Positions 58,789-61,373 of a DNA stretch of 64,000 bases are shown piece by piece; position 1 is the first letter of the stretch; each line of letters opens with the position of its first letter. The DNA lies in contig NZ_CP059225.1 in the NCBI RefSeq assembly GCF_014251655.1, positions 65,854 through 129,853 of the forward strand. The letters run 5' to 3'. Both the position numbers and the translations under genes were made by a program. Source of the DNA: Blattabacterium cuenoti (lineage in GTDB: Bacteria; Bacteroidota; Bacteroidia; Flavobacteriales; Blattabacteriaceae). The notes beneath the pieces were generated by a model. That model searched no databases, was not told where the DNA came from, and was given only the letters and a program-made list of their open reading frames with translations.

Positions 58789-59025
58789 TTATTTACTTTT
58801 TTTTTTATATTTAAAACGTTTTAATGTATTTTCAATTCCTATCTTATTAATGAGTCTAATAGTAGAAATGCAAACTTTTAAAGTAATCCATTTTTTTTCT
58901 TTTATTATAAAAAAACGTTTTCTACATAAATTTATATTAAAACGACGTTTATTTTTATTGTTAGCATGAGAAACTTTATTACCTACCATTGCTTTTTTTC
59001 CTGTCAATTCACAAATTTTTGCCAT
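58789..59025 (-). CDS. rpmB: 50S ribosomal protein L28
   Basis: A 78-residue bL28 (start [20 protein letters not shown]). The core [19 protein letters not shown] and the [16 protein letters not shown] segment fit the family. It opens the ribosomal/SRP-receptor operon and is divergent from yebC. A TATATTTG -7-like element on the minus strand (59066-59073) overlaps the yebC promoter. Confidence 0.95.
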
Positions 59026-59047
59026 AATAGTTTTTTTTGCTAAATTG

Positions 59048-59075
59048 TTGACAAAATAAGCAATACAAATATAAT
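59048..59075 (+). promoter_or_regulatory. Consensus sigma-70-type promoter (TTGACA-N16-TATAAT) before yebC
   Basis: TTGACA (59048-59053) and TATAAT (59070-59075) are separated by 16 bases, exactly the classical hexamers. Transcription would start near 59083, about 11 bases before the yebC ATG. Such E. coli-like hexamers are unexpected in Bacteroidota, where TTG/TAnnTTTG is the norm. It would drive yebC-rnpB-tRNA-Ser. Confidence 0.5.
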
Positions 59076-59093
59076 TAAAAAGAAGTAATTTTC

Positions 59094-59801
59094 ATGTCAG
59101 GACATAGTAAATGGGCAAATATACAACATAGAAAATCGAATCAGGATTTTAGAAAATCCAAAAAATTTTCCAAAATCATCAAAGAAATTACTATAATTGT
59201 TAAAGAATCAGGAATAAATAATTTCCGATTCAAAAATGCGATTTTGAATGCAAAATCTATTAATGTTCCTAAAAATACTATAGAAAAAGCTATAAAAAAA
59301 GCTTTACAAATAAAAACAGATCATTATAAAAGTTTAAATGTAGAAGGACAAAATTACGGAATTAGTATGATAATAGAATGTATGACGAACAATACTATTA
59401 GAACGACATCCAATATTAGAACCTTTTTTAATAAAAGTGGAGGAAGATTATGTCATAATGGAGAACTAAATCATTTGTTTCGAAGAATCGGTCTTTTTTT
59501 TATAAATAAAAAAGATATTCACTATTCTATGGAGGATTTCGAACTTATGACAATAGATTTTGGAGCTAAAGATTTCATAATAGATAATAATATGATTTCT
59601 GTATATACAGATTTTGAATTCTTCGGATCTATGAAAAACAATTTAGAAAAATTAAATATCCTCCATAAATACCAAGTCAAACGGATTCCTAAACAAATCA
59701 AAGATATTTCAGATGAAAATAAAAATAAAGTATTAAATTTTATTGAAAAACTGAAAAAAGATGAAGATGTAAAAAATATTTTTTCCAATTTTAAATTATA
59801 A
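59094..59801 (+). CDS. YebC/PmpR family protein
   Basis: A 235-residue YebC-family protein starting MSGHSKWANIQHRKSNQD. The middle domain carries ECMTNNTIRTTSNIRTFFNKSGG (in pieces ECMTNNTIRT, IRTFFNKSGG, about residues 98-120). Family members were annotated as transcriptional regulators, and recent work links them to translation of proline-rich stretches. Which applies here is unknown. Its stop codon is 2 bases before the rnpB P1 helix. Confidence 0.92.
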   Translation: MSGHSKWANIQHRKSNQDFRKSKKFSKIIKEITIIVKESGINNFRFKNAILNAKSINVPKNTIEKAIKKALQIKTDHYKSLNVEGQNYGISMIIECMTNNTIRTTSNIRTFFNKSGGRLCHNGELNHLFRRIGLFFINKKDIHYSMEDFELMTIDFGAKDFIIDNNMISVYTDFEFFGSMKNNLEKLNILHKYQVKRIPKQIKDISDENKNKVLNFIEKLKKDEDVKNIFSNFKL

Positions 59802-59803
59802 AA

Positions 59804-60116
59804 AAAAAGTAGAATGTCCTATCGCATTTCTTTTTGGAAATGAGGAAAGTCCGGACACCGTAGAGCAACACAATGGGTAACGCCCTTCCATCGTAAGATG
59901 AGGAATAGTGCAACAGAAAGAATGTATAGGGTTAGATTAAAAAATCTAAACTACTGTAGTGAAATCATGTAAACTCTGTGTGGTGAAATGCCATGTAAAC
60001 CGGAAAATTGGCTCGATCGATACCGGTGGGTAGGCAGATAGAGATTATGGGTAACCTAAATCCTAGATAAATGATAGGTATAAATATACAGAATCCGGCT
60101 TATAGTTCTACTTTTT
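59804..60116 (+). ncRNA. rnpB: RNase P RNA
   Basis: Recognised from the universal core GAGGAAAGTCCGGACACC (59853-59870) followed by GTAGAGCA, and the 3' ACAGAATCCGGCTTATA. The ends are set by an 11-bp P1 helix: AAAAAGTAGAA (59804-59814) with TTCTACTTTTT (60106-60116). A P3 hairpin CATTTC/GAAATG is visible. The RNA is the catalytic part of the tRNA 5'-end processing enzyme. It begins 2 bases after yebC and ends 1 base before tRNA-Ser. Confidence 0.95.
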
Positions 60117-60117
60117 A

Positions 60118-60203
60118 GGAGAGATGGCCGAGAGGATTAAGGCGCACGTCTGGAAAGCGTGTTCACAAAATTAGTGTCAAGGGTTCGAATCCCTTTCTCT
60201 CCG
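60118..60203 (+). tRNA. tRNA-Ser (anticodon GGA)
   Basis: An 86-base class II tRNA. The acceptor stem is GGAGAGA/TCTCTCC, the anticodon loop CTGGAAA has anticodon GGA (stem CACGT/GCGTG), a long variable arm follows, and the T-arm is AGGG-TTCGAAT-CCCT. Discriminator is G, and CCA is not encoded. Its 5' end is one base from the rnpB P1 helix. Confidence 0.95.
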
Positions 60204-60209
60204 CTAAAC

Positions 60210-61373
60210 CTAATAATTTCCTATATCTTTTAATTTTCTTTCAATGACATTGGTTCGAACTCCTAATAATTTATCTATATCCTTAGAAGCTCCTTGTAAT
60301 TTATCTTGTGCTTGATGAAGCAAAAATCCAAATTTCGAAAATTCCTGTTTAACAGTTTCTAATATTTTCCATACTTCAGAACTTCTTTTTTGAATAGCTA
60401 AGGTTCTAAACCCTATTTGTAAACTATTTAATACGGCTGCTAACGTTGATGGTCCTGTTATAACAGTTCTATATTTCCTTAATAATTCTTCTAATAAACT
60501 AGAATTCTTCACTATTTCAGCATATATTCCTTCAAAAGGCAAGAATAAAATAGCAAAATCAGTAGTATGTGGAGGATCTATATATTTATCTCTAATATCT
60601 TTAGACATTTTTTTAAGTACAGATTCCATATTTTTTATAGCCATTTCTATATTCTTTTTTTCTCCTTCACGATAAGCAATCTGTATTTTTTCATAAGTTT
60701 CTTTTGGAAATTTAACATCAATAGGTAACCATATAATATTTCCATCTTCAAGTCCTGGAAGTTTAATTGCAAATTCTACTACAAAATTTGTACTAGATTT
60801 AGTAATAACATTAGTCGCATATTGTTCTGGAGATAAAATTTGTTGTAAAAGCATTGAAAGTTGCATTTCACTAAAACTTCCACATATTTTTACATGATTT
60901 AAAGTTCTTTTCAAAGAACTAACATCTTTTGATAAAACTTTCATTTCTCCTAAACCTTTTTGCAAAAAAGATAACTGATTTCCGATAATTTCAAATGATT
61001 TTCCAAGGTGGAAATTTAAAGATTTTTGAAGTTTTTCACGAATATGTTCTTGAATTTCTTCAAGTTTTCCTTCTACAACCTGTACAAACTTTTCTTGCTC
61101 CGTATGGAAAAAATACAGTTTCTTAGCTTGTTGATCAATATAAAATTCAATTTTTTTATCAATATTGTTTTGAAAATCTATTATATTTTGAATTAATCCA
61201 TTTTTTGATTCTGTTAGAGAATTCCCCATTTCTATTTTTCCATATTGGAATAACTTTTTTATTTCATGTTGTTGAATTTTAAATTCATTTCTAAAAAATA
61301 ATTCCAATTTTCTCAGTAAGAATAAACATATGAGAATAATAAAAAAACAAAAAAATATCAAAAAATAATACAT
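60210..61373 (-). CDS. rmuC: DNA recombination protein RmuC
   Basis: A 387-residue RmuC: one N-terminal membrane helix (about residues 2-20), a long coiled-coil (about 30-165), and the nuclease-like RmuC domain (about 180-350). WLPIDVKFPKETYEKIQ (about 220-236) and TDFAILFLPFEGIYAEIV (about 271-288) contain conserved acidic residues. It limits inversions at short inverted repeats in E. coli. It ends 6 bases after tRNA-Ser on the opposite strand. Confidence 0.9.
   Translation of the reverse strand: MYYFLIFFCFFIILICLFLLRKLELFFRNEFKIQQHEIKKLFQYGKIEMGNSLTESKNGLIQNIIDFQNNIDKKIEFYIDQQAKKLYFFHTEQEKFVQVVEGKLEEIQEHIREKLQKSLNFHLGKSFEIIGNQLSFLQKGLGEMKVLSKDVSSLKRTLNHVKICGSFSEMQLSMLLQQILSPEQYATNVITKSSTNFVVEFAIKLPGLEDGNIIWLPIDVKFPKETYEKIQIAYREGEKKNIEMAIKNMESVLKKMSKDIRDKYIDPPHTTDFAILFLPFEGIYAEIVKNSSLLEELLRKYRTVITGPSTLAAVLNSLQIGFRTLAIQKRSSEVWKILETVKQEFSKFGFLLHQAQDKLQGASKDIDKLLGVRTNVIERKLKDIGNY

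Follow-up and report, generated by a model that had tools for sequence, protein, structure and literature searches.

The RNase P RNA gene of Blattabacterium abuts a serine tRNA gene and is probably released from a joint transcript by RNase P

In Blattabacterium, the endosymbiont of cockroaches, rnpB, the gene for the RNA of RNase P, is adjacent to a tRNA-Ser(GGA) gene on the same strand in every one of the 49 genus genomes that we compared. The gene anatomy and its comparison across genomes are best read as a yebC-rnpB-tRNA transcript in which RNase P forms the 3′ end of rnpB by cutting at the tRNA, and we consider this reading probable. We examined the arrangement in a window of 64,000 nucleotides from Blattabacterium cuenoti, where yebC, rnpB, tRNA-Ser(GGA) and rmuC follow one another with gaps of just 2, 1 and 6 nt (Table 1).

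Table 1. Coordinates of the rnpB locus in the window, and of the gene for the RNase P protein elsewhere in the genome
Feature	Position	Strand	Basis or remark
Promoter-like site, sigma-70 type, TTGACA-16 nt-TATAAT (12/12), upstream of yebC	59048..59075	+	
yebC-family gene, 235 aa; stop 2 nt before P1	59094..59801	+	family name read from sequence
rnpB, class A RNase P RNA with 1-nt 3′ tail	59804..60117	+	Rfam RF00010 and folding
P1 helix, 5′ strand, AAAAAGTAGAAT	59804..59815	+	fold, genus alignment, covariation
P1 helix, 3′ strand, GTTCTACTTTTT	60105..60116	+	fold, genus alignment, covariation
Spacer, single A, nucleotide -1 of the pre-tRNA	60117..60117	+	
tRNA-Ser(GGA)	60118..60203	+	ARAGORN, Rfam; inferred RNase P cut 60117/60118
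rmuC-like gene, convergent, end 6 nt past the tRNA	60210..61373	-	name read from sequence
rnpA (L135)	G000:C1:137346-137531, outside the window	-	PF00825

The RF00010 model matched window positions 59806-60118 (+) over model positions 1-367 with 192.6 bits, against a gathering score of 100, and this was the only rnpB found when the 621-kb, AT-rich genome was searched. Judged by a covariance-model score that extends over the full model and by a closed P1, rnpB is a bacterial class A RNase P RNA. Unconstrained folding of 59799-60210 gave a P1 of 12 bp, an unpaired A60117 and then the tRNA. Pairing held in 456 of 480 P1 cells across 40 distinct sequences from the genus, compared with a mean of 400 and a maximum of 414 when partners were shuffled (1000 shuffles) and with 271 of 478 at best when P1 was slid by one or two columns. 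The P1 helix is real and strongly covarying. Both ARAGORN and Rfam recognize the downstream gene as a cloverleaf with a long variable arm and a GGA anticodon. The span given by ARAGORN is 60118-60204, while the acceptor stem with its discriminator G reaches to 60203; the gene lacks an encoded CCA. The other serine tRNA genes detected in the genome have GCT and TGA anticodons, which leaves this as the only one with GGA. The fold, Rfam and ARAGORN thus agree with a preliminary description of the locus, which had P1 ending at 60116 and the tRNA beginning at 60118.

The order yebC > rnpB > tRNA-Ser(GGA) >< rmuC is kept in 49 of 49 Blattabacterium genomes, which are about 0.5-0.64 Mb each. Most assemblies place rnpB at about 91-129 kb. 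Because gene order within Blattabacterium seems to be mostly static, the 49 genomes represent one ancestral event rather than 49 tests. The spacer between rnpB and the tRNA ranges from 0 to 29 nt, extremes that are approximate owing to some poor P1 fits (e.g. L013, L046), and it is at most 3 nt in 24 of the 47 genomes with a fitted P1. These fits were stopped at the tRNA and do not overlap it; the overlaps that arise under unrestricted extension are artefacts. Since the spacer varies this widely, it is the adjacency that is conserved and not the gap, and the single base between the two genes is specific to the B. cuenoti genome. The comparison of spacing in relatives that the preliminary description had proposed therefore bears out the adjacency but not the one-base gap, and it lends no support to a one-base tail as a designed feature. 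At the other end of rnpB, the yebC stop falls inside the fitted 5′ strand of P1 in 35 of 47 relatives, instead of 2 nt before it as here. In these genomes yebC coding sequence runs into P1, so that the gene for the catalytic RNA includes the yebC stop codon. When the joint RNA is folded in silico, the acceptor stem forms with a predicted probability of at least 0.8 in 44 of 47 genomes, and P1 does so in 37 of 47.

We also searched for signals that could separate the transcripts. A scan of 59000-60400 predicted no terminator-like site, in line with the earlier remark that none separates rnpB from the tRNA, and on the plus strand it gave nothing promoter-like beyond 59374. The usual -7 box of Bacteroidota is TAnnTTTG. 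This box is present just upstream of rnpB in 24 of 29 free-living Flavobacteriales but in only 1 of 49 Blattabacterium genomes, and by this motif comparison the Blattabacterium gene is shown to have lost the promoter box of its free-living relatives. A hidden promoter at the 3′ end of yebC was considered and rejected: codons of conserved residues show no drop in third-position variability there, no excess of synonymous conservation was seen in the genus, and TAnnTTTG is absent in 48 of 49 genomes. A degenerate promoter within yebC or rnpB is possible, the DNA being AT-rich. Were such promoters present in both the yebC 3′ end and rnpB, then rnpB and tRNA-Ser could be made as separate transcripts, with rnpB ending at a U-run after P1. 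A T-run does follow P1, or forms its outer 3′ strand, in most members of the genus, and two Dictyoglomota whose rnpB precedes a tRNA-Asp gene do have a T6 run and a TATAAT box in between. We nevertheless regard separate transcripts as very doubtful, given the missing TAnnTTTG box, the unconstrained yebC end and the lack of predicted signals in the scanned region. A joint transcript is favored because there is no space for a promoter or terminator, the free-living box has been lost and the yebC stop usually lies within P1.

The site upstream of yebC is tentatively a candidate operon promoter, not clearly conserved in the genus. A promoter conserved at this position was rejected, as the perfect site of the window is not clearly common to the genus: one relative (L045) also scores 12/12, and most relatives lack the site. 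The TTGACA-TATAAT site stands in a Bacteroidota genome, where TAnnTTTG would be the usual -7 box.

In the model that we favor, yebC, rnpB and tRNA-Ser(GGA) would constitute a single transcription unit in Blattabacterium. RNA polymerase would pass from rnpB into the tRNA, the separate rnpB promoter having apparently been lost and no terminator being predicted, and the tRNA would fold as a normal pre-tRNA for which rnpB serves as the leader. The cut between 60117 and 60118 would then be made by an RNase P that already exists, most probably a different molecule working in trans. RNase P makes tRNA 5′ ends (PMC4919922), so this cut would leave rnpB with P1 and a short tail; one cleavage would yield the 5′ end of the tRNA together with the 3′ end of rnpB, the latter consisting of P1 plus 0-29 nt depending on the species. 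With a tether of 0-3 nt, cleavage in trans is likelier than cleavage in cis, as far as the enzyme's general layout indicates. In the RnpA cleft the leader is bound in an extended state at nucleotides -4 to -7 (PMC4919922), whereas in the joint RNA fold predicted for the B. cuenoti genome most of nucleotides -2 to -7 pair within P1. At its outer end P1 has five A-U pairs; cleavage may require these terminal pairs to open and may be slow. In Sulcia, a related endosymbiont, 5′ processing with monophosphate ends has been reported (PMC6581868).

Co-transcription does not by itself specify the nuclease. The rnpB 3′ end could come mainly from RNase E/G cleavage at the AU-rich junction of P1 and tRNA followed by exonuclease trimming, with RNase P only trimming the leftover leader. 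RNase E takes part in the 3′ processing of M1 RNA in E. coli, an RNase E/G gene that could act before RNase P is encoded here (G000:C1:111819-112640), and the U-rich spacers of 5-29 nt in many genus members are possible targets. In about half of the genomes, however, including that of the window, a spacer of 0-3 nt leaves almost no single-stranded target for RNase E/G, and we find this route rather unlikely. As for release by RNase P, the joint transcript and the cut put forward in the preliminary description fit the anatomy and the comparative data, while the one-base tail does not extend to the genus. Its further suggestion that such processing replaces other nucleases is not established, given the RNase E/G gene, and a self-processing loop in the sense of autoregulation is unsupported: RNase P RNA may well function with a 3′ extension still attached, and the cut would then be without regulatory effect.

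Linkage of rnpB to a tRNA is rare outside Blattabacterium. Within 1.5 kb downstream of rnpB, the 29 free-living Flavobacteriales have no tRNA except for one tRNA-Pro at 1349 nt, and rnpB followed by a close tRNA T-loop occurred in 0 of 394 other Bacteroidota genomes, using a pattern that does detect the B. cuenoti genome. A wide scan of about 85,000 species required a ACAGAACCCGG core; because Bacteroidota mostly carry ACAGAATCCGG, they are covered by the phylum pattern scan and not by the wide one. Six of the seven ACAGAACCCGG matches are real, two each in Defluviitaleaceae, Negativicutes and Dictyoglomota, and the seventh (L100), which has no tRNA, is a chance match. In the Defluviitaleaceae (L098, L099) and Negativicutes (L101, L102), rnpB is closely followed by tRNA-Ser(GCT). 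Between P1 and the tRNA there are only about 8 nt in L101 and 13 nt in L102, too few to hold a promoter. On these genomic data, the linkage is rare, yet has arisen several times.

Other members of the Blattabacteriaceae show neighborhoods of their own. In a second genus, g3 (L061, L064), rnpB has a very short P1 and tRNA-Met(CAT) begins 10 nt after the CTTA core; this is evidently an independent joining. In another case (L054), in the 263-kb genome G066, tRNA-Leu(GAG) directly adjoins the 5′ side of rnpB, so that 3′ processing of the tRNA could free the rnpB 5′ end. Neither yebC nor rmuC is beside rnpB at the Blattabacteriaceae loci examined outside Blattabacterium. We also considered and rejected two ancestral linkages, yebC-rnpB and tRNA-rmuC: in the free-living genomes compared, those assembled as a single contig, yebC and rnpB are far apart, and neither yebC nor the rmuC homologues, which matched weakly, have a tRNA nearby. 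The literature searched, which lacked most subscription journals, did not describe an rnpB-tRNA unit for any bacterium, Blattabacterium included, which is not proof of absence. The preliminary description, which knew of none for this lineage, is consistent with that search, though the arrangement itself extends to genus g3, Negativicutes and Defluviitaleaceae.

The linkage would have come about through genome compaction, by deletion, in the ancestor of the genus. It may be no more than a tolerated, neutral outcome of deletions in a genome that is compact, a view that we moderately favor and that concerns origin, being compatible with release by RNase P. Elsewhere in the genome tRNA genes are packed at gaps of about 0-10 nt, the spacer drifts over its whole range within the genus, and the 263-kb genome G066 instead carries its tRNA on the upstream side. 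Compaction may not be the sole route to such a joining, however, as it recurs in Negativicutes and Defluviitaleaceae, which by name are not reduced symbionts of the insect type. One cluster of tRNA-Ser(GCT), tRNA-Pro(TGG) and tRNA-Arg(TCT) at G000:C1:39296-39543 (L189) has gaps of about 0-8 nt, and from such packing very tight tRNA spacing appears common in this genome.

The gene for the protein subunit, rnpA, is detected by PF00825 in 49 of 49 Blattabacterium genomes, and its frame is broken in at least 36 of them by a poly(A) stretch of 9-13 bases, A10 being the commonest, that sits between ...LIGTLVKK and ...FKKSVHRNRIKRLL. Four genomes fell outside the automatic classification, two of which (G006 and G008) have one frame by eye, and one genome scored as in frame (G042) has a stop just after the poly(A) run. 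In the frameshifted genes, the C-terminal part read in its proper frame has a pN/pS of 0.28, compared with 0.30 in in-frame genomes and 1.07-1.46 in the wrong frames; the corresponding values for the N-terminal part are 0.56, 0.66, and 0.71 and 1.26. Constraint on rnpA is clear for the C-terminal part and weaker for the N-terminal part. Conservation of both halves suggests that the frameshifted genes are rescued by transcriptional slippage. In Blochmannia and Buchnera, homopolymer frameshifts are retained and rescued in this way (PMC3017870 and works cited there), and rnpA is not mentioned in PMC3017870. Homopolymer assembly error could explain single genomes but is unlikely for 36. The frameshift is perhaps more surprising than the linkage of rnpB to a tRNA. 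It is conceivable, though in our estimation quite unlikely, that both peculiarities act together, with rnpB freed solely by RNase P from the yebC-rnpB-tRNA-Ser precursor and RnpA made only from the minority of transcripts that slipped into frame. If true, the amount of active RNase P would be coupled both to what the enzyme itself does and to slippage by the polymerase.

What emerges is an essential ribozyme that appears to lack a promoter, a terminator and free ends and to rely on its own substrate for release. The spacers of 0-29 nt form a natural series for asking how near a structured leader may approach a pre-tRNA before RNase P fails, and the rnpA frameshifts in most of the genus, taken with the rnpB linkage, make the supply of RNase P in reduced genomes directly testable.

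The arrangement likely represents a known principle, co-transcription of RNase P RNA with tRNAs, now in bacteria and with the opposite end of rnpB overlapped by a protein gene. Shu and Martin reportedly found in 1991 that the RNase P RNA of Candida glabrata is transcribed together with substrate tRNAs. The yeast mitochondrial precedent invoked in the preliminary description is apt, as fMet, RPM1 and Pro share a single promoter in the Saccharomyces cerevisiae mitochondrial genome (PMC3797045). There, as would be the case here, the RNase P RNA gene stands beside tRNA genes in one transcript and tRNA processing helps to release the RNA. Yeast mitochondria differ in using another polymerase and protein partner and in the further fragmentation of RPM1, whereas Blattabacterium has a full bacterial class A RNA that directly abuts just one tRNA and is preceded by a protein gene. 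The Blattabacterium unit would be a bacterial counterpart of these mitochondrial units, in another long-reduced endosymbiont genome. Free-living Flavobacteriales have the same class A RNA with the same cores and P1 but differ in having their own TAnnTTTG box and no nearby downstream tRNA. The Negativicutes, Defluviitaleaceae and genus g3 cases are alike in that a same-strand tRNA starts 10-36 nt after the CTTA core, and differ in their tRNAs, in their evidently independent joinings and, for L101 and L102, in an rnpB that matches the class B model. In tRNA punctuation, the excision of tRNAs from polycistronic RNA by RNase P and RNase Z, a tRNA likewise serves as the processing signal of its neighbor; in Blattabacterium, unlike in ordinary punctuation, that neighbor is the processing enzyme's own RNA.
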